Shown here piece by piece: positions 12,945-27,809 of a stretch of 42,583 bases of DNA. The stretch comes from a virus. How positions within the stretch are numbered: position 1 is the stretch's first letter; each line of letters begins with the position of its first letter. Location: the IMG/VR virus record IMGVR_UViG_3300018432_000021, positions 1-42,583 of that record. One strand, given 5' to 3'. The position numbers and the translations under genes are program-made. Under the pieces are notes generated by a model, which was not told the origin of the DNA, did not search any database, and worked only from the letters and a program-made list of their open reading frames with translations.

Positions 12945-13018
12945 TACTCCGTGTCGGATTCGAACCGACGATCTCCTGGATGAAAGCCAGGTGCCGTAGG
13001 CCGCTAGGCTAACGGAGC
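12945..13018 (-). tRNA. tRNA-Glu (TTC)
   Basis: 7-bp acceptor GCTCCGT/ACGGAGT (with G-T), loop CTTTCAT giving anticodon TTC, T-loop TTCGAAT, discriminator A. The 3' CCA is not encoded (CTA follows). Confidence 0.9.
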
Positions 13019-13022
13019 TAGG

Positions 13023-13157
13023 TTACCGCTTCGGCTTCTTGTTGCCATGCTTGGCGCCCTTCTTGCGGCGCCTGCGCTTGAGCGAGGGACGGCTCTTGCC
13101 GCCCTTGGCGCCATCGCGCTTGGCCTTCTTGCTGCCCTTCTTCGGTCCTGTCTTCAT
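13023..13157 (-). CDS. Lys/Arg-rich miniprotein, 44 aa
   Basis: MKTGPKKGSKKAKRDGAKGG..., with about half of its residues Lys or Arg, plus Gly, Ser and Pro. It lies inside the tRNA cluster on the tRNA strand. Composition suggests nucleic-acid binding (tRNA or packaged DNA). It is similar in style to the C-terminal half of the protein at 8811-9092. No promoter or SD stands out. It could be a low-complexity open frame, but the strong Lys/Arg bias argues for a real gene. Confidence 0.55.
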   Translation of the reverse strand: MKTGPKKGSKKAKRDGAKGGKSRPSLKRRRRKKGAKHGNKKPKR

Positions 13158-13173
13158 GGACCGAGGGTATCAG

Positions 13174-13256
13174 ATGCGGAGCGCGACTCGAACGCAAACC
13201 TAGTGTGGTTACTGGCTTATGAGACCAGCAGGCCTACCCAGGCCCACTACTCCGCA
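13174..13256 (-). tRNA. tRNA-Met (CAT) with long variable arm
   Basis: Acceptor TGCGGAG/CTCCGCA, anticodon loop CTCATAA (typical of Met tRNAs), T-loop TTCGAGT. Unusually, an extra AACC/GGTT stem lies in the variable region, as in Leu/Ser tRNAs. CCA is not encoded. Initiator, elongator or lysidine-Ile cannot be told apart here. Confidence 0.75.
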
Positions 13257-13257
13257 G

Positions 13258-13325
13258 AGCCCTCGGTCGGATTCGAACCGACGACGCTAGCCTTAGGAGG
13301 GCCGACGTGTTCCCACTTCGAGGGC
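13258..13325 (-). tRNA. tRNA-Arg (CCT), short
   Basis: Acceptor GCCCTCG/CGAGGGC, loop CTCCTAA, T-arm GTCGG/CCGAC with TTCGAAT. 68 nt with a reduced D-arm (GTG-GGAA-CAC). A9-like base at position 8 instead of T. No encoded CCA. Confidence 0.75.
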
Positions 13326-13330
13326 TTGAG

Positions 13331-13397
13331 TGGCTCCGACGAGAATCGAACTCATCCAGCCGCCGTATGAAAGCCGCCGCCGTGCCATCACGGAGCC
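13331..13397 (-). tRNA. Atypical tRNA, probably CAT (Met/Ile)
   Basis: Perfect acceptor GGCTCCG/CGGAGCC and T-arm ATGAG/CTCGT with TTCGATT, but the middle is GGC-repeat rich and pairs poorly. The best fold gives loop TTCATAC (anticodon CAT) with a G28-G42 mismatch; a TTC (Glu) reading has more mismatches. Only 67 nt. Possibly a decaying gene. Confidence 0.5.
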
Positions 13398-13400
13398 GAG

Positions 13401-13471
13401 CGGGTCATGTAGGAATCGAACCCACATCAGAAGGTTTGGAAGCTCCTGTCTTGCCATTGGACGAATGACCC
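13401..13471 (-). tRNA. tRNA-Trp (CCA)
   Basis: Acceptor GGGTCAT/ATGACCC, loop TTCCAAA (anticodon CCA), discriminator G as in bacterial Trp tRNAs. The top pair of the anticodon stem (31-39) is a C-C mismatch. CCA 3' end not encoded. Confidence 0.8.
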
Positions 13472-13476
13472 GAGAG

Positions 13477-13546
13477 CGCCCCAACTAGGAATCGAACCTG
13501 AGTCTCCGAGATTCGAAGTCTCGGGTCCGGACACACCGGCAAGGGC
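13477..13546 (-). tRNA. tRNA-Arg (TCG)
   Basis: Strong anticodon stem CGAGA/TCTCG with loop CTTCGAA; T-loop TTCGATT. Acceptor GCCCTTG/TTGGGGC has one T-T mismatch and G-T pairs. No encoded CCA. Confidence 0.75.
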
Positions 13547-13553
13547 TTGAAGG

Positions 13554-13624
13554 GGTGACGGCAGGGAATCGAACCCTGATCGACGGGGACACAACCCGTA
13601 GACTTACCGTTAGCCGACCGCCAC
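13554..13624 (-). tRNA. tRNA-His (GTG)
   Basis: Anticodon stem ACGGG/CCCGT with loop TTGTGTC, T-arm CAGGG/CCCTG, discriminator C73 as required for His. The usual G-1 is not encoded (T precedes). Confidence 0.8.
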
Positions 13625-13637
13625 ACGATGATTCTAG

Positions 13638-13710
13638 CACGCTCGACTGGATTTGAACCAGCGACTTCCGCCTTCGCAGGGCGGCGCTCTATCCACTGAG
13701 CTACGAGCGT
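13638..13710 (-). tRNA. tRNA-Arg (GCG)
   Basis: Textbook fold: acceptor ACGCTCG/CGAGCGT, D-arm GCTCAGTGGATAGAGC, loop CTGCGAA, T-loop TTCAAAT. The anticodon GCG is unusual because bacteria normally read CGN with inosine (ACG). Confidence 0.9.
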
Positions 13711-13713
13711 GTA

Positions 13714-13786
13714 TACGCGACGAGAGATTCGAACTCTCACTGAACGGGACTTGAATCCGCTGCCTCTGCCGTTGGGCTAGTCGCGC
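13714..13786 (-). tRNA. tRNA-Leu (CAA), short variable loop
   Basis: Acceptor GCGCGAC/GTCGCGT, loop TTCAAGT with an A31-C39 mismatch, 5-nt variable loop rather than the long arm expected for bacterial Leu, discriminator A. Identity follows from the anticodon only. Confidence 0.7.
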
Positions 13787-13790
13787 GAAG

Positions 13791-13871
13791 TACCGGAGAC
13801 AGGAGTCGAACCTGCAAGCCCGAAGGCTACTGGGTCTAAGCCAGCTGTGTAAACCATTCCACCACTCCGGC
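13791..13871 (-). tRNA. tRNA-Leu (TAG)
   Basis: Class II tRNA with variable arm AGCC-TTCG-GGCT, anticodon loop CTTAGAC, acceptor GCCGGAG/CTCCGGT. No encoded CCA. Confidence 0.9.
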
Positions 13872-13877
13872 AAGGAG

Positions 13878-13948
13878 CGAGCCGTACGGGAATCGAACCC
13901 GTGACGCTTCCTGGACAGGGAAGCACGTTGCCATTACGCCAACGGCCC
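13878..13948 (-). tRNA. tRNA-Asp (GTC)
   Basis: Acceptor GGGCCGT/ACGGCTC, anticodon stem CTTCC/GGAAG with loop CTGTCCA, discriminator G. Confidence 0.9.
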
Positions 13949-13951
13949 TTA

Positions 13952-14023
13952 TAGCTCGTACGGTAGTCGAAACCGTGCCTACGCCTTGAGAGGGCGTCGT
14001 CCTAACCACTAGACCAACGAGCC
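13952..14023 (-). tRNA. tRNA-Glu (CTC)
   Basis: Acceptor GGCTCGT/ACGAGCT, stem ACGCC/GGCGT with loop CTCTCAA, T-loop TTCGACT. Second Glu tRNA, complementing the TTC isoacceptor. Confidence 0.88.
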
Positions 14024-14028
14024 TTGCA

Positions 14029-14099
14029 TCGGGATACTGAGAATCGAACTCAGACAACCTGGTCCCAAACCAGGCGTGCGGCCATAACACTTCATCCCG
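14029..14099 (-). tRNA. tRNA-Pro (TGG)
   Basis: Acceptor CGGGATG/TATCCCG, stem CCTGG/CCAGG with loop TTTGGGA, discriminator A, T-arm CTGAG/CTCAG. Confidence 0.9.
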
Positions 14100-14104
14100 T
14101 AAAG

Positions 14105-14175
14105 CTCCCAGACTAGGATTCGAACCTAGATTGAGCGAGTAACAGTCGCTTGGCTTGCCATTAGCCGATCCGGGA
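14105..14175 (-). tRNA. tRNA-Asn (GTT)
   Basis: Stem AGCGA/TCGCT with loop CTGTTAC, acceptor TCCCGGA/TCTGGGA, discriminator G. Confidence 0.9.
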
Positions 14176-14179
14176 TTAG

Positions 14180-14250
14180 CTGCGGATCAAGGATTCGAAC
14201 CTCGGTGAGCAGGTTCAGGGCCTGCCATCTTGCCGCTAGATCAATCCGCA
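14180..14250 (-). tRNA. tRNA-Gln (CTG) with C33
   Basis: Acceptor TGCGGAT/ATCCGCA, stem GCAGG/CCTGC, loop CCCTGAA. Position 33 is C instead of the near-universal T. Discriminator G fits Gln. Confidence 0.85.
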
Positions 14251-14313
14251 ATGTCCCGGCCCACCTTCCGCCTGAAAGGGCGGCGAGCAACCGGACGAAG
14301 AACTCTAGCAGAA

Positions 14314-17211
14314 TTACCTGACAGGCGTCGGCGGCCGGTGCGTGTGCGGGATCGACGTGAAGTACTTGGTCCGGCTGAGCGGGATGTCGATGCCGTTCGT
14401 GAAGACGCGGACGACCACGCCGACCGGCCCGTCTGGCACCTGGACCGCGACGAGACCGGAGGCTGCCGACAGCGATGCGCTGGCCGGTACCGCGCCGGAG
14501 CCAGCCGCTACCAGCGCGCTGGTCGCTACGAGCACGACCGAGCCGCTGGCGAGCCGCATCGCCGTGACCGACACGCCGCTCTCAGCCGACAGCGCCGAGG
14601 CGACCGTGGCGATCCGGATCATGTCCGCCGTGAGCCCGCCCTCGGCCGCGAGCGCGGCCTCCCCGATGACGAGCCCGCCTGCGTTCGCGAACAGCAGGCT
14701 CTCAGCGCCGAGCGCAGCCGCGCTGGCCCGAATGACCCCGGAAACCGCCTGTAGAGCCGAATCTGCCGACCCCGAGAACGCGCCAGCGCGCACCGCGCCA
14801 CCTAGCGCGCCGAGCGCCGACTGCCCGGAGAAGGCTGCGCCGCCGCCCGCGATCCGGATTCCGGCGCTGGCTAGTCCGCTCTCGCCCGACAGCGCCGCCG
14901 CGCCGCCCAGCGACAGCAACGCAACCGCCGCCAACGTCGTCTCAGCGCTCAGCGCTGCGGCACCGATCTGCATGTTGCCGCTGACAGCGAACATGAAGCC
15001 TTCGGCGCTCAGCGCGGATGCCGCGAGGATCGTGGCGGAGCCGAGGGCGTCGAGGCCAGACTGGCCAGCGAGCGTTGCCGCTCCAGCTGCCAGCCGGGTC
15101 CCCGCGCTCGCTAGAGCCCCGTCTGCCGTCAACGAAGCCCCACCCACCAAGAGTACCACCGGAGCGGCGGAGAGGCTGCTCTGGGCGTCTAGGGAGGCAA
15201 GGATCCCGCCGGGAATCAACGTCGGGTTGCCCGTGAGGGTGGTGTTCGCGTCGAGCGCCGATGCGGCGACTGCCGTCAGCGCGGCTGCGGCTGCGAGCGA
15301 GCCGTCAGCGGTGAGCGCGGCGGAGCCAGGACGAAGCGCCCCAGCGGCGCCAGCGAACCCACTCTCGGCCGACAGCGTCGCTGGCGCGGTCGCGATGCGC
15401 ACGCCCGTGACAACCAACGACCCATCAGCGCTGAACGTCGCCGTGCCGACCACGAACCCGCCAGCGTTGCCGGTGAGGCCAGATTCGCCGCTGAGCGCGG
15501 ACACACCAGCCGCCAGCAGAGAGCCGGCAGAAACGAGGGTCGTCTGAGCGCTGAGCCCCGAGATCCCGAGCGCCACGCGGTTGCCCGCGCTCGCCAGGGC
15601 CGACTGGCCGCTCAGCGCCGCCGCAGCATCGGCCACCAGCGACCCAGCAGCGGTCGCTCCGCTCTGGCCCGACAGCGCGGCCGATCCCAGCCCGAGACGC
15701 TGGGCGGCGCCCGCGAGCGCCGACTCGCCCGAGAGGGCGGACGCGCCCGACCGGACACCACCGCCAGCGGCCGTCAACCCGCTCTGGCCGCTCAGCGCCG
15801 AGGCGACCACCGCGATGCGGATGGCTGCGCTGGCCAGCGACCCATCAGCGCTGAAGGCAGCCGCGCCGTTACCGACGCGTAGGCCCGCGCTAGTGAGGGC
15901 GCCATCGGCGCTCAGCGCCGCCGAACCGAGGGCTAGACGCTGGCCAGCGCCGGTCAGCGATCCGTCTGACGCTAGGGATGCTGCACCAATGGCCGTGCGG
16001 ACGCCTGCGCTCGTCAGCGTCGTCTGCGCCGTCAGCGTGGAGGCGCCGCCAGCGAATCGAGTTCCAGCGCTGGCGAGCGTGGTCTGCGCGGTGAGGGCCG
16101 ATGCGCCAACGCCGATACGCACGCCTGCGCTGGTGAGCGTGGTCTGGGCCGTGAGGGTGGCAGCACCGTCAACCGGAGGCACAGACGTACTCTCAGGTGT
16201 CTCTAGCCAGACTTCAGCGACCTCGAAGTCCGTCGCGCCACCGCCGGACGAGTAGCCACGGAATCGAACTTCCAAGTTCGAGTAGGACGTGATGTCCTCG
16301 GCGTCAACATTCGGAATGTCCACCGCGTAGTCAGCTAGGGAGCCGGTGAGGCTGGCGGTCTCCAGTTCGGCACAGATCGGAGTGCCGCCCTCATACAGGC
16401 GTAGGAACATGGTGCCGGAGCCCGAGGTGACCCGAGCGCGGACGTTGAGGGTGTGCAACGTACGGGTGTCAGGCGTGCCGCCAGATGCGAGCGAGACTTC
16501 CGCCGTCGCCGTAGTGGTTGGCGGAACTGGCTCAGCGACCTCCTTGACGGCCAGGTGGATGAACGCCCGGTCGTCTGCGGTGCCGCTGCTGAACCCGACG
16601 TTGCGCGCCCCCTGTCCCGCCGTGGTTTCGCGGACGGCTGCGGTGACCTGCGCGCCGGTATCGAAGTTCGGGAGCGCGGTGCTGCCGGTGCCAGCAGCAG
16701 GAGGAGCGCCCAACCCAGAGACGCCGCCCGCGAATCGCAACGAGTTGGTGCCAGGCGATCCATCCGTTACGGACTGGACTGCCAGCGTGCCATCGCCCTG
16801 AAGCAAGACAATCCCGGCCTCGTGAATAGCGGTGTCCATGCTAACCCCGGCGGTGACGGTAATCGCCAGTCCCCACATTTCGACAATGTCGTTGGTCCGC
16901 TGGACCGTGACGGTGTTGTCAGCCCTGCCCGCGATGGCCGAAGCGTCACCGAGGAAACGGAACGTGGCGCGGCACGCCTCGCCTGCGCTGTCCACCGCTG
17001 TGGCTCCAGCTGCAATTCCAGGAACAACCACACCGCCGTACGTCACGCCGCCGTCCGGGACGTGATCCGTCGCGGAGTCGAGGTTGCAGACCAGGATCAA
17101 AACGCCCTTGGGCGTCCCGACAGGGTCGTGCGTCCAGGAGAACGATGCCTCACTGACCGAGGCGGTCGTCCCGGTATGAGACTCAGTGGCCGCGTCGTAG
17201 GCGACGGCCAT
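14314..17211 (-). CDS. Long repeat-containing fibre-like virion protein
   Basis: 965 residues. Residues 1-235: a beta-rich N-terminal domain (MAVAYDAATESHTGTTASVS...). About 236-345: a second beta-sandwich-like domain ('TLNVRARVTSGSGTMFLRLYEG'). About 350-930: some 29 tandem 20-residue repeats of the form G-a-a-L-s-A-x-s-x-L-a-S-A-G-x-R-h-a (DNA about 14440-16170, 60-bp period). The C-terminus carries 'GPVGVVVRVFTNGIDIPLSR'. There are no cysteines in the repeats. It looks like an extended tail or head fibre, possibly a repeat solenoid. The family is not recognised; the role is inferred from architecture and the two neighbouring virion-like genes. Confidence 0.7.
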   Translation of the reverse strand: MAVAYDAATESHTGTTASVSEASFSWTHDPVGTPKGVLILVCNLDSATDHVPDGGVTYGGVVVPGIAAGATAVDSAGEACRATFRFLGDASAIAGRADNTVTVQRTNDIVEMWGLAITVTAGVSMDTAIHEAGIVLLQGDGTLAVQSVTDGSPGTNSLRFAGGVSGLGAPPAAGTGSTALPNFDTGAQVTAAVRETTAGQGARNVGFSSGTADDRAFIHLAVKEVAEPVPPTTTATAEVSLASGGTPDTRTLHTLNVRARVTSGSGTMFLRLYEGGTPICAELETASLTGSLADYAVDIPNVDAEDITSYSNLEVRFRGYSSGGGATDFEVAEVWLETPESTSVPPVDGAATLTAQTTLTSAGVRIGVGASALTAQTTLASAGTRFAGGASTLTAQTTLTSAGVRTAIGAASLASDGSLTGAGQRLALGSAALSADGALTSAGLRVGNGAAAFSADGSLASAAIRIAVVASALSGQSGLTAAGGGVRSGASALSGESALAGAAQRLGLGSAALSGQSGATAAGSLVADAAAALSGQSALASAGNRVALGISGLSAQTTLVSAGSLLAAGVSALSGESGLTGNAGGFVVGTATFSADGSLVVTGVRIATAPATLSAESGFAGAAGALRPGSAALTADGSLAAAAALTAVAASALDANTTLTGNPTLIPGGILASLDAQSSLSAAPVVLLVGGASLTADGALASAGTRLAAGAATLAGQSGLDALGSATILAASALSAEGFMFAVSGNMQIGAAALSAETTLAAVALLSLGGAAALSGESGLASAGIRIAGGGAAFSGQSALGALGGAVRAGAFSGSADSALQAVSGVIRASAAALGAESLLFANAGGLVIGEAALAAEGGLTADMIRIATVASALSAESGVSVTAMRLASGSVVLVATSALVAAGSGAVPASASLSAASGLVAVQVPDGPVGVVVRVFTNGIDIPLSRTKYFTSIPHTHRPPTPVR
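14440..16170 (-). repeat. 60-bp tandem repeats in the fibre gene (about 29 units)
   Basis: Degenerate 20-codon units, each with a [SGD]A-x-S-x-L core followed by an Ala/Gly-rich turn. Codon use varies between units, so selection acts on the protein rather than recent DNA amplification. Confidence 0.8.
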
Positions 17212-17213
17212 GA

Positions 17214-17999
17214 CTAACTCGCCGTCGCCGTGATTACGGTCGCGTCGGACTCATCGTTGATCTTGCTGAACAGTGGCGTGATCGTCCAGCCGGTGGTCGT
17301 GACGTCAGCGTCAGGGCGGATCTGCTGCATCTCGACAGCCGCAGCAGGCACGATGGCGAACATCATGCCGCCGAACGGGCTCGTAGACGATGCGTTGTTC
17401 GCCATCGTCTTGCTGCCGGTGGCACCCGCAGTAGCGAGAATACCGGTGGCGACGTAGCAAAGGGTCGTGTCGAGTCGTTCTGTGAACGTGGGAGTCGTTC
17501 CAGTAGGCGGCGTGAGGTTGTTGGTCGTGTCCGCCCAGTCCCAGTTGAACAGCAGGATCAGGGCGCCGTCAACCTCAGTGGTGATGCTTGGCACCGTGGT
17601 GTCAGCGGCAGATGGGCTGCCGTCGGACAAGACGAAGCTAGGGAGAGGATCGCTCGGATTCCCGGTGTCGGCGCCGGTGACGCGAACGATCACGCCCTGC
17701 GAGCTTGCGGCGCTGTGAGTGACGGTGTAGTCCCCGGACTCTCCAGATGCGGTCTTACGCCAGACGCGCAATGAGAGGATGAAGCTACCATCCGATGCAT
17801 CAATTGGGTACGTCTCGCCGACCGGAGTATCAGCAACCACGAATCCAGCTGGTGGCGTCGGGGTCGGCGGCGACGCGCTGCCAAGGAGGTGGAACAGGTA
17901 GAGGACATCATCGTCCTCGATGCCGGACGGCGCGGTGATGGTAGTGTTCGTACGGCTCGCGTACGTGGTGTTGCTGATCGAGCCGAAATCTACTGCCAT
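17214..17999 (-). CDS. Putative virion structural protein, 261 aa
   Basis: MAVDFGSISNTTYASRTNTT...; almost all beta-strand-type, Thr/Ser/Ala-rich. Its N-terminus resembles the first domain of the 965-residue protein encoded at 14314-17211 (both begin MAV and share the 'S.......T....dd.vLhL' pattern), suggesting paralogous domains. The stop is 2 nt before the next start, so they are co-transcribed. Likely a fibre or baseplate component. Confidence 0.6.
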   Translation of the reverse strand: MAVDFGSISNTTYASRTNTTITAPSGIEDDDVLYLFHLLGSASPPTPTPPAGFVVADTPVGETYPIDASDGSFILSLRVWRKTASGESGDYTVTHSAASSQGVIVRVTGADTGNPSDPLPSFVLSDGSPSAADTTVPSITTEVDGALILLFNWDWADTTNNLTPPTGTTPTFTERLDTTLCYVATGILATAGATGSKTMANNASSTSPFGGMMFAIVPAAAVEMQQIRPDADVTTTGWTITPLFSKINDESDATVITATAS

Positions 18000-18024
18000 G
18001 GGCTACGGGTCACCCCGTTCTCGG

Positions 18025-18420: not shown

Positions 18421-18428
18421 AGGGACTA

Positions 18429-18434
18429 ATCGTA
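18429..18434 (-). promoter_or_regulatory. Promoter -10 (TACGAT) for the fibre operon
   Basis: On the minus strand TACGAT is followed 8 nt later by ATG (18420). It lies back-to-back with the CCA-enzyme promoter 33 nt away. Confidence 0.45.
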
Positions 18435-18466
18435 CAGCGCGTCTTGCCGCGCTCTCGAAGATGTGG

Positions 18467-18472
18467 TACGCT
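18467..18472 (+). promoter_or_regulatory. Leaderless promoter -10 (TACGCT) for the CCA-adding enzyme
   Basis: GTGGTACGCT, then 6 nt, then ATG at 18479. Confidence 0.6.
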
Positions 18473-18478
18473 TCCTTC

Positions 18479-19915
18479 ATGACCGACGCCATCACCCGCA
18501 CCGACGACCTGATGGCCAGCCTGGGGCTGGAGGTCTACCGCGTGGGCGGCTCCGTCCGTGACGAACTGCTGGGTCGGCCCGCTAAGGACGCGGACTACAT
18601 GGTGCGCGGCGTGAACTTGGCCGATCTGATCGGACAGTTGAATCGCGTACCGCTGCGCTGCAAGCTGCTGACGGATCGCGAGGGCCGCAAGTTGGGCGTT
18701 CGCATCGCGCAGGGCAAGCACCACCCGATCGAGGTCACGCTGCCCCGCAAGGAGGTCAGCACCGGCCCCGGCCACCGTGACTTCGACATCGTGCTGGACC
18801 CGAACCTGCCGCTGGCCGAGGATGCCAAGCGGCGCGACTTCACGTTCAACGCCCTGTACCGCCGCATTGATGGACAGCCCGGCGCTGTCGTGCTGGACCC
18901 CACCGCGTGCGGCCTGTACGACTTGGAGCACAAGTTCATCCGCACGACGCACCCGGACTCGTTCCGGGACGATCCCCTGCGGATCCTGCGTGCGCTGCGG
19001 TTCGTCTCGACGCTGGGATACGAACTGTCGATCAACACGCAGCAGGAGATGGAGCGCCACGCGGACGCGGTGGACGGTTTGACGGCCGCTGGTGTCTCGG
19101 GCACCGTCTACGACGAGTTCTGCAAGCTGCTGATGGGCGAGTTCCCGCATCGCGCGCTGTACGTTGCCGCCCACACGGGCGTTCTGAGCACCGTGTTCCC
19201 GGAACTGCGGCCTATGATCGGCTTCGATCAGGGCTCGCGGTACCACGATCTGACGACCGACGAGCACACCTTCAAGGCGCTGGAGACAGCGGCTCACGTT
19301 GAGGCGCCCCTGCGCGTCCGTTGGGCGCTGTTGTTCCATGATTGCGGCAAGCCGGAGACGGCCTGGGTCGGCAAGGACGGCAACAAGCACTACTACGCCA
19401 AGTGGGTCGATGACCCGTTTGCGCCCTATCAGATCGAGGATCACGAGGTCGTCGGCGAGCGGTTGTGGCGCACTGCCGCTGAGCGCCTGAACGTGCCGAA
19501 GTCGCTGCGCGAGGACGTCGCGCGCCTGGTCCGCGACCACATGGTGCCGTGCGTTTCACCGATCAAGCTGACCAAGATCCGTCGTTGGCGCGTGCGCTAC
19601 GGCGACGAGTTCCTGCGCGACCTGTTCATGCACCGCATGTGCGACCTGACGGGTAAGGGCGCCGCCAACAAGGCCCACCTGACCAACATCGGCACCGCCG
19701 AGTTGGCCCGCAAGGCCGCTGTTCGCGATGGCGTTCCCGCGTCGGTCAAGGATCTGGCCGTTGACGGCCGCGACGCGCAGGCCGTCAATCTGTGCGGCCG
19801 AGACATTGGCGAGCGCCTGGCGCTCGTGCTGGATGAAGTCGTAGTTGACCCAACCCCAATGAAGCTGGGCCGCGACTGGCAGTTGCAGCGCCTGGCAGGA
19901 GGAGGAGCCGTATGA
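18479..19915 (+). CDS. cca: CCA-adding enzyme (tRNA nucleotidyltransferase) with HD domain
   Basis: 478 residues. It adds or repairs the 3'-terminal CCA of tRNAs. N-terminal polymerase-beta-type head: G-G-S-V-R-D (23-28), metal-binding D37-A-D39, RRDFTFNAL (about 118-126), then 'DPLRILRALRF'. The C-terminal half carries an HD phosphohydrolase domain ('LLFHDCGKPET', later 'DHEVVGERL' and 'VRDHM'). HD-bearing members can also remove 2',3'-cyclic phosphates from damaged tRNA ends. The start at 18479 is set by the promoter 6 nt upstream. None of the 30 tRNA genes here encodes CCA, so the enzyme is a direct partner of the tRNA arrays. Confidence 0.93.
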   Translation: MTDAITRTDDLMASLGLEVYRVGGSVRDELLGRPAKDADYMVRGVNLADLIGQLNRVPLRCKLLTDREGRKLGVRIAQGKHHPIEVTLPRKEVSTGPGHRDFDIVLDPNLPLAEDAKRRDFTFNALYRRIDGQPGAVVLDPTACGLYDLEHKFIRTTHPDSFRDDPLRILRALRFVSTLGYELSINTQQEMERHADAVDGLTAAGVSGTVYDEFCKLLMGEFPHRALYVAAHTGVLSTVFPELRPMIGFDQGSRYHDLTTDEHTFKALETAAHVEAPLRVRWALLFHDCGKPETAWVGKDGNKHYYAKWVDDPFAPYQIEDHEVVGERLWRTAAERLNVPKSLREDVARLVRDHMVPCVSPIKLTKIRRWRVRYGDEFLRDLFMHRMCDLTGKGAANKAHLTNIGTAELARKAAVRDGVPASVKDLAVDGRDAQAVNLCGRDIGERLALVLDEVVVDPTPMKLGRDWQLQRLAGGGAV

Positions 19916-21008: not shown

Positions 21009-22535
21009 CGCCTGTCCGACGCCCTGGCTGACCGCCGATAGGCGGTAGCCGCCGTAGGTGGCCGGGCTGGCGCCGCCCTGGAAGGTCGGCGTGCCGATGA
21101 AGTCACCGCTCGCCGCTCCTGAGCGCAGCATGTTGTGGTCTCGCCGCGAGACCGCCGAGCCGTTGTTGATGTCGATGCTGGTCGCGATGTTGTCGTAGAC
21201 CTGGGTGTTGCGCCCCGCGTCGTCAGCCGACTTGCGGTCCAGCGCGATGATGCCGCACGGCAGGTTCCAGGGGCACGGCGACCGGTAGACGATGGTGTTG
21301 TGCCGGATGATGGATCCGTCGTCGCTGTAGAGTTCGACGCCCCAGTTACGGCCGGTGACATCCACCACGTTGTCCTCGATCAGGTTGCCGCCAGTGCCGT
21401 CGAAGGCGCCCATGACCTGAGTCTCGCCGGAGATCGTCTGCTTGAACAGGTTGCCGCGCACGATGGCGTTGGATCCGCCGTACCACTGGATCATGTCCGT
21501 GTGGTTGCCGGATCCGTCGTCATTCACGTTGAGGAACGTGTTGCCGATGACGCTCGCGGGCGTGCTCGACGCGAACCGCACGCCGTCAGAGCCGCCGCCC
21601 TGGAACAGCGAGTTGCGGATCGTCACGCCGCCTTCGACTAGGAAGCGCTGCGCCGTGGCGTTTCCGCTGATGTTGTTGTGCGAGTTGCCATCGAACACGA
21701 TGTTCGAGCCGCTCGCCGTGCCGCTGACCGTGGCCTGGGAGTTGAACGCCGAGTTCTTGATCGTGATGTTGTTGGCACCGCCCGAGACCGAGCCGCCCAT
21801 GCTGCTCATGCCGTCCAGCGTGAAGCCGCTGTCACCAGTCCCGAAGCTGATCTTCATCGTCGGCGTGGCGCCATCGGCCTTGCGGACCGTGATCGCCTTG
21901 TTGGTGCCAGTCCATGTGCCGTAGGAGCCCGAGGCGAGACAGATTGTCTGCCCCGCGCTCGCCGCCGAGACGGCACTCGCGAAGGTGCTTGGCGTCGCCG
22001 TGGTCGTGCAGCCGCCTGGAGGCGGCGTCGGCGTGGCCGTTGGGGTTGCCGTTACGGTAGGTGTCGCTGTCGGGGTTGCCGTAACGGTAGGAGTCGCCGT
22101 TGGGGTCGCGGTAGGAGTCGCGGTAGGCGTTGGCGTGGCCGTTGGGGTCGGAGTAGGCGTCGGATTCGGTCGCGGACCGGCCTTCACGACGATTGACTTC
22201 TTTGTGGAGCGGGTCGAACCGCGCCGATTGCGCACTGTCAGCCGCACATTCTTCGTTCCGGCGTTCTGGAAGGTGAAATTGAGCTTCACACCTGTTCCGA
22301 GCGGCCAATTTGAGCCTCCGGAGCCGTCGTTGCCGTCATCCGACCACGTGTACGTACACGGAGCCCGGTCACACGTGCTGGAGGAGCCGTCGAACGCGAC
22401 GGATTCGCCCGTGTAGGGGTCGAGAGGAGAGTAGGTGTAGCTTGCGGTCGGTGCTGCTCCCGCCGTGGGGTTAGTCCCCAGGAGCACTCCGAAAGCCAGA
22501 ATCAGGGCCACGAGGGCGAGGTAAACTGGACGCAT
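20979..22535 (-). CDS. Secreted PKD / parallel beta-helix protein
   Basis: 518 residues. Signal peptide MRPVYLALVALILAFGVLLG followed by an A-x-A site; a PKD-like domain (about 30-118, 'YTYSPLDPYTGESVAFDGSS', 'YTWSDDG'); a Thr-Pro(-Ala) linker of about 55 residues; and a right-handed parallel beta-helix (about 190-500) with repeats such as 'NNITIKNSAF', 'GVTIRNSLFQ' and 'SNAIVRGNLFK'. Beta-helix proteins of this shape often bind or cleave polysaccharides. A Sec signal on a phage protein implies export by the infected cell. The ATG lies 7 nt after TAGGCT (-10), so the mRNA is probably leaderless. Confidence 0.8.
   Translation of the reverse strand: MRPVYLALVALILAFGVLLGTNPTAGAAPTASYTYSPLDPYTGESVAFDGSSSTCDRAPCTYTWSDDGNDGSGGSNWPLGTGVKLNFTFQNAGTKNVRLTVRNRRGSTRSTKKSIVVKAGPRPNPTPTPTPTATPTPTATPTATPTATPTVTATPTATPTVTATPTATPTPPPGGCTTTATPSTFASAVSAASAGQTICLASGSYGTWTGTNKAITVRKADGATPTMKISFGTGDSGFTLDGMSSMGGSVSGGANNITIKNSAFNSQATVSGTASGSNIVFDGNSHNNISGNATAQRFLVEGGVTIRNSLFQGGGSDGVRFASSTPASVIGNTFLNVNDDGSGNHTDMIQWYGGSNAIVRGNLFKQTISGETQVMGAFDGTGGNLIEDNVVDVTGRNWGVELYSDDGSIIRHNTIVYRSPCPWNLPCGIIALDRKSADDAGRNTQVYDNIATSIDINNGSAVSRRDHNMLRSGAASGDFIGTPTFQGGASPATYGGYRLSAVSQGVGQASDGLNVGIR
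22020..22170 (-). repeat. Short tandem repeats encoding the Thr-Pro linker
   Basis: Degenerate 6-, 18- and 24-bp units (GTTGCCGTTACGGTAGG-like on the plus strand) code for repeated TPTATPT and TPTVTAT. It is slippage-prone and probably length-variable between isolates. Confidence 0.6.
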
Positions 22536-22542
22536 GTTCTAC

Positions 22543-22548
22543 AGCCTA
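22543..22548 (-). promoter_or_regulatory. Leaderless promoter -10 (TAGGCT) for the beta-helix gene
   Basis: TAGGCT on the minus strand, 7 nt, then ATG at 22535. Confidence 0.5.
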
Positions 22549-22564
22549 CCAACTACGGTGCTAG

Positions 22565-22648
22565 CGGAAGGCAACGTACTCGAAACGTAGCGTTTGACCG
22601 CCGAGACGCTTTCCAGGCGTTCCTCGCACCCTGGCGAGTTTACCTTCC
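22565..22648 (-). tRNA. tRNA-Ser (GGA)
   Basis: Acceptor GGAAGGT/GCCTTCC, D-arm CTCGC/GCGAG, anticodon loop CTGGAAA on an AACGC/GCGTC stem with one mismatch, long variable region, T-loop TTCGAGT, discriminator G as in Ser. A divergent member, easy to miss. Confidence 0.65.
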
Positions 22649-22652
22649 GTGC

Positions 22653-22735
22653 GGAGTGGGCGCTTGACCTCACAGCGCTTCTACAGGGATGCGGTTCAGC
22701 GGTGCTTGCACACATAACCTGAGGCCCCTCACTCC
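22653..22735 (-). other. Possible decayed class II tRNA
   Basis: GGAGTG/CACTCC close an 83-nt region (tRNA-sized) exactly between two Ser/Cys tRNAs. No intact T-loop is present (a GGTCAAG lacks one T). Weak evidence. Confidence 0.25.
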
Positions 22736-22738
22736 TAG

Positions 22739-22809
22739 AGTCGTGGACCGGATTCGAACCGGTGTGGTGCGGGTTGCAGCCGCACATCTAGCCCCTCGAT
22801 CACCACGAC
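22739..22809 (-). tRNA. tRNA-Cys (GCA)
   Basis: Acceptor GTCGTGG/CCACGAC, stem TGCGG/CCGCA with loop CTGCAAC, discriminator T typical of Cys. No CCA. Confidence 0.9.
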
Positions 22810-22871
22810 GTGCCCCTCGCTCGTAGATCAACATACCGGCCGGGCTAGAAGACCCCCGGAGCGAGGGGGAG

Positions 22872-22951
22872 CGGAGCGCCTGGGAGTCGAACCCAGCCAG
22901 CGTTAGCCCTGGCCCGCTTAGCAAGCGGACGATCCTCCTAGGAAACGCTCC
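22872..22951 (-). tRNA. tRNA-Ser (GCT)
   Basis: Class II fold with variable arm, stem TCCGC/GCGGG, loop TTGCTAA, T-arm CTGGG/CCCAG, discriminator G. Confidence 0.9.
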
Positions 22952-23006
22952 TTGGGGAGGGAACAGGGACGCTTCCGATCCGGATACGGCACGTATGACC
23001 CTCCAG

Positions 23007-23089
23007 CGGATGGCCGAGGAGTCGAACCCCCAGGAATTACCCCGCCCTCGGGTTCGAACCGAGTTGCACGCCTCCGCGCGGGACCATCC
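23007..23089 (-). tRNA. tRNA-Ser (CGA)
   Basis: Acceptor GGATGGT/GCCATCC, anticodon stem CTCGG/CCGAG with loop TTCGAAC (itself resembling a T-loop), long variable region, T-loop TTCGACT. The D-arm is irregular. Confidence 0.75.
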
Positions 23090-23094
23090 AAGAG

Positions 23095-23177
23095 TGGGGA
23101 GTATAGGAATCGAACCTATCGCGTCAGAGACTCCTGGTTTACAGCCAGACGGACACCACCTTGGATCCGGACTCCCC
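23095..23177 (-). tRNA. tRNA-Tyr (GTA)
   Basis: Acceptor GGGGAGT/ACTCCCC, loop CTGTAAA, long variable arm, T-arm ATAGG/CCTAT, discriminator A. Confidence 0.92.
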
Positions 23178-23218
23178 TCTGAACGAAGAATCCTACCAGA
23201 TTCGGTTGACGAGGGTGT

Positions 23219-23264
23219 TTGCCGGCCGAAATCGCGCTCCTGACTCGCTCAGAAGTGGTACGAT
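23219..23264 (+). promoter_or_regulatory. Promoter region with GTGGTACG box
   Basis: TTTGCCGGCCGA is followed by AGAAGTGGTACGAT (extended -10, TACGAT at 23259-23264). A leader with an SD (GAAGGAGAAC) follows before ATG 23301. The same pair of elements (TTGCCGGCCGA plus AAGTGGT-CG) recurs near 35299-35325. Confidence 0.5.
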
Positions 23265-23300
23265 ACTCAAGTCCATCGTCCAAATCGAAGGAGAACACTC

Positions 23301-23468
23301 ATGAACATCCGAATCAGCGGCCAAATCCGCGAAAACGACCGCGAAATCGACATCACAGCCGATTACGAGTCGTACGACGGCGCCATGACGGCCTTTCAGA
23401 CTGAAATAGCCGTCCAAACGCTTGCAGACCAGGTCGTCCGGAAGCTTCTAGCCGCGAGGGCAGCATGA
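23301..23468 (+). CDS. Hypothetical protein, 55 aa
   Basis: MNIRISGQIRENDREIDITA..., an alpha/beta protein with a strong SD (GGAGAA, 6 nt). It heads the operon leading to the second phosphoesterase and dUTPase. The stop overlaps the next start (ATGA). Its lower GC content than the neighbours hints at a separate origin. Confidence 0.6.
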   Translation: MNIRISGQIRENDREIDITADYESYDGAMTAFQTEIAVQTLADQVVRKLLAARAA

Positions 23469-23647
23469 ACACGTCCGGCAGCATCTACCACACCGAGGTC
23501 ATCGGCCATACGCAGCGCGACGGGTTCAACGTGCTGCTCATGGATCAGGTCAACAAGTGCCAGAATCAGGGCCTCATCGCCGAAGTACAGTACGCGGGTC
23601 GCCAAGGCGGCGGCTACAGCGCGCTGATCCTCTGGAGGATCCCCTGA
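23465..23647 (+). CDS. Hypothetical protein, 60 aa
   Basis: MNTSGSIYHTEVIGHTQRDG...; small, predicted beta-rich. It overlaps its neighbours on both sides (ATGA at the start, TGATG at the end), so it is firmly part of the operon. No family recognised. Confidence 0.6.
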   Translation: MNTSGSIYHTEVIGHTQRDGFNVLLMDQVNKCQNQGLIAEVQYAGRQGGGYSALILWRIP

Positions 23648-24342
23648 TGCGCGTCAGAGACGACATTGTCCTCGCGGACACCTGGGTGACGTCAGATTCG
23701 CACTTCGGGCACGACAACATCGTCGGTTTCTGCCACCGGCCGGAGGACCACGACCAGGTAATCCTGGCCGAATGGCGCAAGGTGGCCCTTCCGGGCCGCA
23801 CGATGCTCCATCTGGGCGATCTCACGTATCGCTCGAACGCCCGATTCAAGGCTCTGACGAGCAAGGAACTGACCGGACCCGGCTTCGCGGACCGGAACTT
23901 CCTCATCAAGGGCAACCATGACGGCCAGCGGTACTCGTACTACAAGGACTGCGGCTTCAAGCTGGCGCGGCCGTTCAGCCTCCGGCTGTCGGCGCTCGGG
24001 GACGGCTTCGTGCCGTTCGAGGATGCGCCGTGGGCGCCCGCCTACACCATCAGCTTCTCGCACTACGGCTGGAACGACATCGAAGACGGCGGTCCGCAGC
24101 CGTCAAACCACTGGCGACTACACGGCCACATCCACAACAACGGCTACCAGCGATCCGAGTTCGTGCCGTTCCTCCGGAACCACATCAACCTGTCGGTTGA
24201 GCAGACGGGCTATCGGCCGGTCAACCTCAAGGCGCTTCTCGATGCAGCGATCCTGGGGATCCTCCCGGCAACCCAAGCCACCGAAGACGGGCTCGCGGCC
24301 GAAGCGCGCGAGCGATCAATCGAACGAAGGAGGACCGTATGA
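23647..24342 (+). CDS. Calcineurin-like phosphoesterase (second copy type)
   Basis: 231 residues. Metal-binding motifs S-D-S-H-F-G-H (about 17-23), H-L-G-D-L, K-G-N-H-D and H-G-H-I-H are all present. The 'TSDSHFGHDNI' opening is the form common in phage-encoded metallophosphoesterases. It is not closely similar to the enzyme at 20113-20838. Substrate unknown; nucleotide or nucleic-acid phosphoester cleavage is likely. It is coupled to small genes on both sides. Confidence 0.85.
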   Translation: MRVRDDIVLADTWVTSDSHFGHDNIVGFCHRPEDHDQVILAEWRKVALPGRTMLHLGDLTYRSNARFKALTSKELTGPGFADRNFLIKGNHDGQRYSYYKDCGFKLARPFSLRLSALGDGFVPFEDAPWAPAYTISFSHYGWNDIEDGGPQPSNHWRLHGHIHNNGYQRSEFVPFLRNHINLSVEQTGYRPVNLKALLDAAILGILPATQATEDGLAAEARERSIERRRTV

Positions 24343-24545
24343 CACTCGCAGAGTTCATCATCGGCGCCGAGGCGTACTATGTCGATTCGCACGACGAGCG
24401 CCGGGGACAGGCGTACTTCAACTACCTGTTCGAGGTCAACCAGCGGATGGCGACCGACATTTGTGGATCTCGTGTGGATCCCTTCTACGATGACGCGATC
24501 ATCCCGCAGTTTCTCGTGCGTCTAGCGACGCTGGGGTTCCGATGA
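24339..24545 (+). CDS. Hypothetical protein, 68 aa
   Basis: MTLAEFIIGAEAYYVDSHDE...; helical, aromatic-rich and acidic. Start and stop overlap the neighbours by 4 nt (ATGA). No family recognised. Confidence 0.6.
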   Translation: MTLAEFIIGAEAYYVDSHDERRGQAYFNYLFEVNQRMATDICGSRVDPFYDDAIIPQFLVRLATLGFR

Positions 24546-24847
24546 AGTGGCCAAGCAGCACCGCACCAGCGCCCTACTGGTCCGTGTGCCCAGTTCCAGA
24601 GCCGACCGACGTCGCGCGGCGCTACGACACCCACAACGAGCGGTGGCCTGACGAGGCGCCTCAGCCGCACAACCCCTTTGCGCCCGTCGAGATCTCCTCT
24701 AGGTCGCTAGGGGCGTTGTCGATCCAGGTCGTGGACGCTGAGATCAAGCGGCTGTTGAAGCGCGACCCCAGCTTCTACTATGAGGGCGACTTCAACGCGC
24801 TGCTGCACAAGCGGCTCGACATCCTGGACCAGATGTCCTACGTATGA
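24542..24847 (+). CDS. Hypothetical protein, 101 aa
   Basis: The first half is Pro-rich and irregular ('[16 protein letters not shown]'). The second half is an amphipathic helix pair ('[20 protein letters not shown]'). Overlaps the dUTPase start (ATGA). Unknown function. Confidence 0.6.
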
Positions 24848-25263
24848 ACATCCAGCTGCTCAACTCGCAGGCTCAGGTCCCCACTCGTCATCTGGGCGCA
24901 GCCGCGTACGATCTGTACTCCTCGGAGTACCGCACGGTTCATCGTGGTGGTCACGCGCTGGTGTGTACCGGGATCGCCATCGAACTCCCGGAAGGGCTGG
25001 CTGGTCTGGTAGTGCCACGCTCCGGCCTGGCCGGACGCTGCGGCGTGACCGTGCTGAACGGGCCTGGCCTCATCGACCCCGACTACCGGGGCGAAGTCAA
25101 GGTGATCCTGGTCAACCACGGCGGCAACGTCCACTACGTCCATCCGGGCGACCGGATCGCGCAGCTGCTCCTCACGCCCTACAGCCTCACCAACTGGGCC
25201 GTGGTGTCGGAGTTGAGCGACACCGAGCGTGGCGAAGCGGGACACGGCTCCAGCGGCCGCTAG
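24844..25263 (+). CDS. dut: dUTP diphosphatase (dUTPase)
   Basis: 139 residues with all five trimeric dUTPase motifs: A-A-Y-D-L (19-23), P-R-S-G-L-A (about 58-63), [13 protein letters not shown] (about 75-87), G-D-R-I-A-Q-L-L (about 101-108) and the C-terminal [10 protein letters not shown]. It hydrolyses dUTP to dUMP, keeping uracil out of phage DNA and feeding dTMP synthesis, a natural partner of the ribonucleotide reductase. Motif 5 has His where Phe is usual (GHGSSG rather than GFGSTG). Confidence 0.93.
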
Positions 25264-25313
25264 AACAAACGTCCAGAAGTGGGACGAATGTCCCCGGCGC
25301 TCCCAATAGTGTG

Positions 25314-25319
25314 TATAGT
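25314..25319 (+). promoter_or_regulatory. Probable -10 (TATAGT) for the collagen-like gene
   Basis: TATAGT stands 27 nt before the start, with an SD in between; the -35 is not obvious. Confidence 0.35.
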
Positions 25320-25346
25320 CAACGTACCCCAACCGGAAGGAGCCAC

Positions 25347-26294
25347 ATGCTCAAGTATCTCACGGCCCTGGTGGCCGTTCTCATCGTTTCACTGATGTCC
25401 GCAGCGTCCGCCTCCGCGTGGACGAAGCCGATTGTCGAGCCGTCCTGTCCTGAGACGCACATCACGACGCTCTCAACCGAGAGCGGCCCGTGGGAAGCCG
25501 TGGCGAAGTCGCCAACGGGTGCTCAGGTATGGAAGGAGACGATCCCTGGCAGCGTCAAGGGCACCGTCACCATCGGCAACACCTACTGGACCACTGGCGA
25601 CGGGTACTACACCGTCGAGGTCTACAACAAGGCCAACAAGAACGACGGCTACGTCAAGGCTCGCGCGTACGGGATCAACTGCGAGCCGCCGGTCGGCACC
25701 CCCGGACCTCCCGGTCCGAAGGGCGATCCCGGACCCGCTGGTCCTCCTGGCCCACGTGGCCCCTCAGGACCCGCTGGCCCTACCGGCCTACAGGGTGATC
25801 CTGGACCGCAGGGTCCGGTTGGCCCGCTTGGACCTCCCGGCCCGGCAGGCGACGGCACGCCTGGCCCGACCGGTCCCGCTGGCCCGGCAGGCGACGGCAC
25901 GCCTGGCCCCGTAGGACCGGCAGGCAAGGACGGCCAGTCGATCTCCAAGAACATCACGGAGATCGTCAACTCGCTGGAGACGTGCACGTCTCGACGCATC
26001 TACAAGTTCCGCGTCGCGAAGCGCATCTTCGTCCCCGGTAAGGGCCTACTGAAGGCCCGCGTCATCAAGGCGTACGAGCCCGGCTTCAAGGTGACCCGTA
26101 AGGGCCGTCTCGTGACCGTCGCTCCGTCGAGCCCCGGCTCGAAGAAGGCCGTGAAGGGGCTTCGCCGCTCCGTCACCGTCATCGTCAAGACGAAGGCAGG
26201 CAAGTACCGCCTAGGCGAGGACTGGACTCAGTGCCTCTCCCCGGACGGCAACCCGAACGATCTGCGCGCAAGCGCGCCCGTTCGAGTCAAGTAG
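25347..26294 (+). CDS. Secreted collagen-like protein
   Basis: 315 residues. Signal peptide [20 protein letters not shown] ending in A-S-A. A beta domain of about 90 residues with Cys pairs ('[12 protein letters not shown]', 'GINCEPP'). Then about 75 residues of Gly-X-Y collagen repeats (DNA about 25698-25935) with GDGTPGP interruptions. The C-terminal domain is Lys/Arg-rich ('[12 protein letters not shown]', '[19 protein letters not shown]') with two Cys. The SD GGAAGGAG precedes the ATG; an open frame extends upstream but overlaps dut. Exported by the infected cell, it may sit on the cell surface or matrix. Collagen-like stretches also occur in phage fibres, but the signal peptide argues for secretion. 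Confidence 0.85.
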
Positions 26295-26319
26295 CACCCG
26301 AGAAACACCCGAAACAACG

Positions 26320-26346
26320 AAAGGCCCCGCCATTGGCGGGGCCTTT
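26320..26346. terminator. Strong bidirectional Rho-independent terminator
   Basis: Perfect 12-bp stem AAAGGCCCCGCC / GGCGGGGCCTTT with a 3-nt loop and T-rich flank (TTTCTGTT). It separates the plus-strand collagen-like gene from the minus-strand tRNA array. Confidence 0.9.
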
Positions 26347-26360
26347 CTGTTGGGGCGATA

Positions 26361-26432
26361 TGACAAGGGAGAGAGTCGAACTCTCGACGCGGGCCTTTTC
26401 AGGACCCCGCTCTACCACTGAGCTACCTTGCC
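26361..26432 (-). tRNA. tRNA-Phe (GAA)
   Basis: Acceptor GGCAAGG/CCTTGTC, stem GGGTC/GGCCC with loop CTGAAAA, T-loop TTCGACT. No encoded CCA. Confidence 0.9.
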
Positions 26433-26511
26433 GTGCGCGCGGCGGACCGTAAGCCTCCCTGGACTGTTACCGCGTTACGTCCAGATCATCAGTCCCTACG
26501 ATCCTACCAAG
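26433..26511. other. Spacer with tRNA-like closing stem
   Basis: 79 nt between tRNA-Phe and tRNA-Gly. GGACCGT (26444-26450) pairs with ACGATCC (26498-26504) and encloses a CTGGAC/GTCCAG hairpin. There is no T-arm. It could be a decayed tRNA or chance. Confidence 0.25.
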
Positions 26512-26583
26512 AGGGCGCGACCGGATTCGAACCGGCACCAGGAGATTGGAAGTCTTCTGTGCTGCCATTGACACCACGCACCC
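26512..26583 (-). tRNA. tRNA-Gly (TCC)
   Basis: Acceptor GGGTGCG/CGCGCCC, loop CTTCCAA, discriminator T as in bacterial Gly. The anticodon stem GAAGA/TCTCC has an A28-C42 mismatch. Confidence 0.85.
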
Positions 26584-26588
26584 TTGAG

Positions 26589-26655
26589 AGCCAAACGAGC
26601 GAATTGAACGCTCCTACGCGGAGTACGAAACCACGGTGATCCCAGATCGTCTGGC
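26589..26655 (-). tRNA. tRNA-Thr (CGT), short
   Basis: Acceptor GCCAGAC/GTTTGGC, loop TTCGTAC with a T31-T39 mismatch, T-loop TTCAATT. Only 67 nt, with a compact D-arm. Confidence 0.65.
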
Positions 26656-26660
26656 GTGAG

Positions 26661-26731
26661 AGCCGACACGGGGACTCGAACCCCGAACCTCTCCCGTACC
26701 AGGGGAGTGCGCTACGTTGCGCCATGTCGGC
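26661..26731 (-). tRNA. tRNA-Thr (GGT)
   Basis: Perfect acceptor GCCGACA/TGTCGGC, stem CTCCC/GGGAG with loop CTGGTAC, T-arm CGGGG/CCCCG. Confidence 0.92.
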
Positions 26732-26736
26732 TTGAG

Positions 26737-26809
26737 TGACGGTGACAGGAATCGAACCTGCATGCCCGAGGGTAAGAGCCTCATCCTAACCAGTTTTTGT
26801 TACACCGCC
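26737..26809 (-). tRNA. tRNA-Lys (CTT)
   Basis: Acceptor GGCGGTG/CACCGTC, stem TGAGG/CCTCG with loop CTCTTAC, T-arm GCAGG/CCTGT, discriminator A. The D-arm has an A-rich stretch. Confidence 0.85.
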
Positions 26810-26815
26810 GTTGAG

Positions 26816-26887
26816 AGCACCGGACGGGAATCGAACCCGCTCCTCCGCCATGGCAAGGCGGCACGCAACCTGTAACGCTTCCGGTAC
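26816..26887 (-). tRNA. tRNA-Gly (GCC)
   Basis: Acceptor GTACCGG/CCGGTGC, stem CCGCC/GGCGG with loop TTGCCAT, discriminator T. Confidence 0.9.
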
Positions 26888-26892
26888 TTGAG

Positions 26893-26966
26893 TGGGGCAC
26901 CAGAGAATCGAACTCTGCGCCACGCGCTTATCAGACGCGCTCCAACAACCAGTTGGACTGAACCCC
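26893..26966 (-). tRNA. tRNA-Ile (GAT)
   Basis: Stem CGCGT/GCGCG with loop CTGATAA, T-arm CAGAG/CTCTG, acceptor GGGGTTC/GTGCCCC with one T-T mismatch, discriminator A. Confidence 0.88.
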
Positions 26967-26971
26967 TCGTA

Positions 26972-27043
26972 TGGCCAATCGGTGAATCGAACACCGCACG
27001 CGAAGCTTGTAAAGCTCCCGCTCTCCCACTGAGCTAATCGGCC
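26972..27043 (-). tRNA. tRNA-Val (TAC)
   Basis: Acceptor GGCCGAT/ATTGGCC, canonical D-arm GCTCAGTGGGAGAGC, loop TTTACAA, T-loop TTCGATT. Confidence 0.92.
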
Positions 27044-27046
27044 GTA

Positions 27047-27120
27047 TGGGCCTCACAGGACTTGAACCTGTGACCTCCGCGATGTCAACGCGACGCTCTA
27101 CGCAACTGAGCTAGAGGCCC
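27047..27120 (-). tRNA. tRNA-Val (GAC)
   Basis: Acceptor GGGCCTC/GAGGCCC, stem TCGCG/CGCGG with loop TTGACAT, T-loop TTCAAGT. Confidence 0.92.
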
Positions 27121-27167
27121 TCGCCTGTTACATCATCCGCCCGTCGGGCGGCGAGTGGTCAGCCTAG

Positions 27168-27242
27168 TGGACCAGGTGGGATTCGAACCCACAACCTCCG
27201 GAGTGCAAAACCGGCGCTCTCCCAATTAGGAGCTACAAGCCC
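27168..27242 (-). tRNA. tRNA-Ala (TGC)
   Basis: Canonical D-arm, loop TTTGCAC on CCGGT/TCCGG with a T31-T39 mismatch, T-arm GTGGG/CCCAC. The acceptor GGGCTTG/CTGGTCC has one T-T mismatch. Confidence 0.85.
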
Positions 27243-27611: not shown

Positions 27612-27616
27612 TCAGA

Positions 27617-27718: not shown

Positions 27719-27743
27719 CCCGCGATGGACTACGGGCGTCGCA

Positions 27744-27805: not shown

Positions 27806-27809
27806 GTGG

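Follow-up and report, generated by a model that had tools for sequence, protein, structure and literature searches.

What phage tRNAs are for has been debated for fifty years. Among the closest described systems, Xanthomonas phage XacN1 is reported to combine tRNAs for 20 amino acids with a CCA tRNA nucleotidyltransferase (PMC5852040), the huge phages of Al-Shayeb et al. are described as carrying many tRNAs, CCA-adding enzymes, and transfer-messenger RNA (tmRNA) along with synthetases, ribosomal proteins, and SmpB (PMC7162821), and one example among the megaphages of the Jorg paper is reported to have 74 tRNAs plus a tmRNA (PMC8172020). Here, we consider IMG/VR virus record IMGVR_UViG_3300018432_000021, a linear record of 42,583 bases (the window, by which we mean this whole stretch) that is probably a fragment of a larger genome; contigs of its relatives are up to 140 kb long. 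With 30 tRNA genes and a CCA-adding enzyme, the window is a further member of this known kind, although XacN1 differs from it as a 384,670-bp jumbo phage with 56 tRNAs in terminal repeats (PMC5852040) and with no RNA of ribonuclease P (RNase P) by Rfam. Upstream of the third tRNA cluster, the window also holds what looks like a divergent RNase P RNA, an element that an earlier first-pass annotation of the same DNA missed. We consider it probable, though well short of certain, that these elements form a tRNA production line in the phage, whose own tRNA set limits the translation of its genes.

The first-pass annotation had described 30 minus-strand tRNA genes in three clusters with anticodons for all 20 amino acids, and this description holds. 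Running ARAGORN, a check proposed there, gives 24 genes in default mode, all on the minus strand, and six more come from Rfam or from relaxed ARAGORN modes. The two from Rfam are Lys-CTT (26737-26809, 40.5 bits) and Arg-CCT (13258-13325, 34.9 bits), both above its tRNA cut-off of 29 bits. Four weak genes, also on the minus strand, surface in relaxed modes only: Arg-TCG (13476-13546, 17 bits in Rfam), one with anticodon CAT (13330-13397), Thr-CGT (26588-26651), and Ser-GGA (22564-22648). Relaxed ARAGORN was rejected as a sole tRNA finder, since it makes 112 to 399 calls, hundreds of them false; these four were accepted because tRNAs with the same anticodons hold equal places in the gene order of relatives.

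Cluster 1 (12944..14250) comprises 15 genes, namely, Gln-CTG, Asn, Pro-TGG, Glu-CTC, Asp, Leu-TAG, Leu-CAA, Arg-GCG, His, Arg-TCG (weak), Trp, CAT (weak), Arg-CCT, Met-CAT, and Glu-TTC. The five genes of cluster 2 (22564..23177, so that it begins at 22564 and not at 22738) are Tyr, Ser-CGA, Ser-GCT, Cys, and Ser-GGA (weak), and the 10 of cluster 3 (26361..27242) are Ala, Val-GAC, Val-TAC, Ile-GAT, Gly-GCC, Lys-CTT, Thr-GGT, Thr-CGT (weak), Gly-TCC, and Phe. All three clusters rest on ARAGORN, its relaxed modes, and synteny in relatives, with Rfam contributing to clusters 1 and 3. The two tRNAs with anticodon CAT are named by anticodon alone, and no initiator tRNA was recognized among the 30. 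Strict readers of TTA, ATA, AAA, CAA, AGA, ACA, and TCA are absent from the set. None of the 30 genes has CCA after the discriminator base, as had been noted before; the accompanying claim, that charging these tRNAs requires a nucleotidyltransferase, is correct, but such an enzyme exists in hosts too.

The phage's own candidate for this step is a plus-strand gene (18461-19915) that lies between clusters 1 and 2, in the sense opposite to the tRNAs, where a full-length HD-domain CCA-adding enzyme had indeed been placed. Its product has three Pfam domains above their cut-offs (PolyA_pol, PF01743, 1.3e-14; RNA-binding, PF12627, 6.1e-6; HD, PF01966, 1.9e-5) and matches phrog_2244, a tRNA nucleotidyltransferase family, at 5.8e-58. 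It has relatives in PDB, and an alignment shows GGSVRD, DxD, RRDF, and DPLRxLRALRF-type motifs to be invariant; in seven sequences, the catalytic motifs DxD, RRD, and (E/D)DxxR do not vary save for the first letter of the last, which is D or E. The best curated family match, tRNA_CCA_actino, reaches 151.9 bits, below its cut-off of 438.8. On its domains and motifs, the protein is a class II nucleotidyltransferase of the CCA-adding type, and specificity for CCA addition is predicted. As for the promoter that had been ascribed to this gene, a promoter-like TGTGGTACGCTTC overlaps the first ATG, and an element of this type is found again at the CCA gene in relatives. The true start is probably 18479, because the first ATG falls within TGTGGTACGCTTC; in the window and most relatives, the gene begins just downstream of TGTGGTACGNTTC.

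No close relatives at the DNA level were found among 50,697 phage records. Searching with the capsid protein brought up 19 records of uncultured viruses, 11 of which have tRNAs (up to 34 per record) and 7 of which have the CCA enzyme at 49-62% identity; the other 12 are mostly short or cut contigs. Three more relatives (G020, G021, and G022) were found through the CCA enzyme. The cluster order is common to the relatives, with small changes between members: Ala-Val-Ile-Gly-Lys-Thr-Gly-Phe first, next Tyr-Ser-Cys-Ser, then the oppositely oriented CCA gene, and last Gln-Asn-Pro-Leu-Arg-Asp-His-Trp-Met-Arg-Met-Glu. The combination of a full tRNA set and a 3'-end enzyme, rightly noted in the first-pass annotation, is a conserved trait of this phage clade. 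Used as single queries, the CCA protein and the portal protein gave no match in viral contigs, and when the CCA alignment was run against genome contigs, all relatives retrieved were bacterial or unassigned, with identities of 26-37%.

The clade also led to the identity of the RNA upstream of cluster 3 (27370..27743, minus strand). With Rfam silent on it, this segment was first read as decayed tRNAs, a reading dropped once relatives showed what it is. In a permissive Rfam scan, class A RNase P RNA matches lie upstream of cluster 3 in G004 (56.9 bits, E = 1e-15) and G019 (32.4 bits, E = 2e-7) and, also upstream but some kilobases away, in G021 (54 bits, E = 1e-14) and G010 (19.1 bits, E = 0.008); a scan of whole records adds G013 (28.4 bits), G014 (28.4 bits), and G018 (27.1 bits), away from cluster 3, for a total of 7 of the 15 clade records. 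A profile built from the RNAs of seven relatives, six of them Rfam matches themselves and one (G002) not, and trimmed to leave out the promoter, finds a single site in the 42.6-kb window, at 27614-27381 (E = 7.6e-10; 3.7e-13 untrimmed), and no match in G022, an 88-kb control. When each member was left out in turn, all seven were recovered, with E values of 2e-7 to 1e-25. In total, the RNA is present in all eight examined clade phages that hold cluster 3 (the window, G002, G004, G010, G014, G018, G019, and G021), and G013 is close to G014.

The fold supports the assignment. Like bacterial class A RNase P RNA (RF00010), the window RNA has a candidate P1 (27733-27743/27370-27380, a perfect 11-bp inverted repeat), P4 with a bulged U, P5, and the motifs CR-I (GAGGAACTTCGGGGC), CR-IV (AGAAAGATG), and CR-V (GACAGGACCCCGAGT), as well as a P3-like hairpin (27697-27718/27617-27638). 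It differs from RF00010 in being phage borne and divergent, within a clade that falls below the Rfam cut-off. In an alignment anchored on motifs and not on pairing, P4 pairs in 97.5% of cells, with a covariation of 0.625 versus 0.205 when shuffled, and none of 500 shuffles is as high. Unguided, RNAalifold on the full eight-sequence alignment recovers P4 including the bulged U, P5 immediately after P4, and P11; double changes occur in 16 of the 26 pairs. The duplex energy of P1/P2 beats all 300 shuffles in only two of the eight RNAs and is matched by 13 (window) to 94 of 300 shuffles in the other six.

Does such an RNA need to be a catalyst? It could instead sequester host RnpA or precursor tRNAs, acting as a decoy or inhibitor, as might be expected of an RNA divergent from the Rfam model in phages where no RnpA was found (15 records). 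Yet the catalytic P4 with its bulged U and CR-I/CR-V are the best-kept parts, and linkage to CCA-less tRNA arrays suits maturation better, so we regard a decoy as distinctly unlikely. The same comparisons bear on whether the tRNAs are a passive, partly decaying collection with no joint function. Several tRNAs are short or poorly scored, and isoacceptor content differs between relatives; against this, phages with CCA enzymes only 48-62% identical retain the three-cluster order, that enzyme, and the RNase P RNA, and P4 shows compensatory change. A passive collection therefore seems to us very improbable.

Beyond the clade, 2 of 48 distant contigs with a CCA enzyme have an RNase P RNA: G064 (202 kb), at 173 bits and thus above the Rfam cut-off, and G058 (94 kb), at 58.3 bits. 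Each has about 25 tRNAs and a full tmRNA. G064 is a phage, as the portal, DNA polymerase, and head decoration genes on the same contig show; among the proteins tested in G058, no structural hallmark was found, and helicase and RNA-binding families are present. Two of the phage RNase P RNAs gave no blastn match in phage records, and under stricter filters, RF00010 found nothing in eight named phages rich in tRNAs or carrying a CCA enzyme. The available text of the huge-phage paper mentions neither "RNase P" nor "ribonuclease P" (PMC7162821), and the Rfam scan described in the Jorg paper gave tRNAs and tmRNA only, with no RNase P RNA (PMC8172020). We found no report of a phage RNase P RNA in the open-access literature, which leaves novelty unproven; if the assignment is true, a phage-borne RNase P RNA is apparently unreported as far as that literature shows, and phages would also control tRNA 5' maturation, a step so far assigned to the host. 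As a side observation, G064 encodes an RtcB-like tRNA ligase (L282 3493-4164) some kilobases away from its RNase P RNA.

What would a phage gain from its own tRNAs? The clade offers a natural experiment on this question, as its members gain and lose isoacceptors and codon use follows at equal GC content. The presence of U34 tRNAs varies across the clade, and we compared eight phages for twelve A-ending codons, contrasting pairs at near-equal GC content of third codon positions (GC3). The test left out G009, G017, and G020 (cut clusters), G022 (no tRNAs), TCA (serine tRNAs are poorly detected), CGA (readable by an inosine anticodon), and four G018 cells where the cluster is cut. All 15 GC3-matched contrasts, which share phages and hence are not independent, are positive; that is, an A-ending codon is used less in phages that lack its tRNA, with a mean log odds of 1.43 versus a mean absolute value of 0.43 in 75 concordant contrasts and with none of 5,000 permutations reaching the effect. 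A gene finder that takes no account of the third base, adopted because a crude gene ranking let in wrong frames in GC-rich phages, again gives 15 of 15 positive (1.33 versus 0.42 in 71; 0 of 3,000 permutations). The strongest contrast is TTA, at 2/278 in G010 without Leu-UAA and 159/326 in G021 with it (GC3 of 0.57 and 0.58). ATA accounts for 19% and 15% in the two phages that have Ile-UAU, compared with 0 to 1.2% in the remaining ten, and the window never uses TTA or ATA, with AAA at 7/395 and CAA at 6/312.

Codon use thus tracks each phage's own tRNAs, with cause and effect inseparable in these data. By this pattern, the codons of phage genes are matched to the tRNAs that the phage itself supplies, which favors a shortage of host tRNAs in infection but also fits codon compensation, in which phage tRNAs top up host isoacceptors for phage-favored codons while host tRNAs are available throughout. 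Compensation predicts the observed coupling as well, and it has a precedent in XacN1, whose tRNAs are reported to target codons commoner in phage than in host (PMC5852040). On the other hand, for most amino acids the commonest codons have tRNAs in the sets of this clade, and a codon that no phage tRNA serves can all but disappear, as TTA does in G010. A bacterial host should read codons such as TTA. For these reasons, we think compensation rather unlikely as the explanation. A narrower alternative is that the tRNAs answer specific anticodon nucleases (such as PrrC, VapC, or colicin D) and not a general loss of host tRNA. Such a role has been proposed for mycobacteriophages (PMC10264068), but a full 20-amino-acid set exceeds what a few nuclease targets would call for, and we judge this explanation unlikely.

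We return to the production line and to the order in which its steps might run. Each of the three clusters would have a copy of the same promoter and yield precursors containing several tRNAs. Allowing one mismatch at most, the motif GGTAGRRTTCTTCGT has just three sites in the window, one ahead of each cluster, all on the minus strand (14295..14309, 23183..23197, and 27337..27351), and these are also the three best window matches of the promoter motif. A looser version has 39 sites in pieces of twelve phages, of which 13 lie at most 250 bases upstream of a tRNA (2 of these 13 inside tRNA genes); with most sites elsewhere, the general type serves other genes too. In the precursors, 5' ends would be cut by the phage RNase P RNA, with the host probably supplying the RNase P protein, 3' ends would be trimmed by nucleases, CCA would be added by the phage enzyme, and host synthetases would charge the products. 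Host proteins are probably used because neither RnpA nor SmpB was found in the 15 records. As phage genes avoid codons unreadable by the phage's own set, that set, and not the host pool, appears to be limiting, which is what cleavage or depletion of host tRNAs in infected cells would lead one to expect.

Several observations weigh against this reading. Rfam RF00010 is silent on the window and G002 RNAs, and the clade RNAs score 19-57 bits, under the curated cut-off of 100 bits; the missing RnpA and SmpB count here as well. G022 (L228-L232; 88 kb, 70% GC) has a relative of the CCA enzyme at 43% identity and no recognizable tRNA. GAA is used at 34.5% in G010 and 51% in G021, with no Glu-TTC tRNA found in either. 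The crude gene ranking, with wrong frames mixed in, blurred the contrasts in GC-rich phages: window CAA rose to 30/290, and its difference from G019 was lost, G014 and G018 had overlapping AAA intervals, and the TTA contrast alone stayed clear (4/229 versus 140/277). Besides the shared phages among the contrasts, the coupling could be equally explained if phages retain tRNAs for codons that they already use. The proposal of the first-pass annotation that the phage keeps translating without host tRNAs is thus supported by the codon data and the RNase P RNA, but neither shows host tRNA degradation, and host factors would still be needed, given that no initiator tRNA was recognized, no RNase P protein or SmpB was found, and some codons have no strict reader in the set. 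The data favor, without proving, translation independent of host tRNAs.

Next to the RNase P RNA stands a further element, at 27744..27805 (minus strand), that appears to be the tRNA-like domain of a tmRNA with no mRNA-like part. Its acceptor has G3-U70 and its T arm is GTGGGTTCAACTCCCGC; it is a poor tRNA, scoring only 24 bits with the tRNA model, and it occupies the position of the Rfam tmRNA matches of relatives, which lie directly upstream of the RNase P RNA in G002 (61.5 bits) and G019 (51.3 bits), both above the cut-off. A match in G010 reaches 44.6 bits, below the cut-off of 47, and an element in G004 was seen by eye. By eye, all five elements keep G3-U70, the alanine signal. The reduction of a tmRNA to its tRNA-like domain is clear in the relatives, and in the window, the fold and position suggest the same identity. 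The G002 and G019 elements share UCGAC and the T arm with tmRNA (RF00023) and with phage tmRNAs such as that described for Melnitz (PMC9004378), but the clade elements, at 62-83 nucleotides whole, lack the mRNA-like domain with its tag reading frame. That report counts tmRNA genes in 402 of 18,146 phage genomes (PMC9004378). A second tRNA-like element, recognized by eye at 27806..27868 (minus strand), has no anticodon arm and ends in ACCA; its computed fold does not favor the tRNA-like form.

Taking these elements together, we speculate, and offer it as a doubtful but possible scenario, that the clade and at least two unrelated contigs took up an RNase P ribozyme for their CCA-less phage pre-tRNAs, which with the CCA enzyme and a limited codon vocabulary would allow translation independent of host tRNAs, and that the adjacent message-less, alanine-type tmRNA would engage stalled ribosomes but add no tag, serving either to rescue them or to block trans-translation.

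Other features surround the clusters. Directly after tRNA-Phe, cluster 3 has an intrinsic terminator with a 13-bp stem (26319..26347, minus strand). Between the cluster 3 promoter and tRNA-Ala, sequence and folds reveal two short acceptor-like hairpins (27295-27333 and 27244-27293, minus strand) that end in an encoded CCA (ACCA or TCCA), whereas the tRNA genes encode none; similar CCA-ended hairpins follow the cluster 3 promoter in six relatives, by eye (L045, L035, L037, L042, L044, and L039). Before cluster 1, manA RNA matches occur in G014 (L240 630-894, 40.2 bits) and G018 (L241 773-1039, 35.9 bits), below the cut-off of 55.2, and inside cluster 1 of the window, a 44-codon frame (13023-13157, minus strand) encodes a highly basic, Lys/Arg-rich peptide. 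In the window and several relatives, Arg-GCG (window 13637-13710) stands in for the usual Arg-ACG, and Ile-UAU is present in G010 and G021; Arg-GCG and Ile-UAU would bypass tRNA editing by TadA or TilS. Away from the clusters, a B12-type ribonucleotide reductase gene (5646-7325, minus strand) lies among the head genes.

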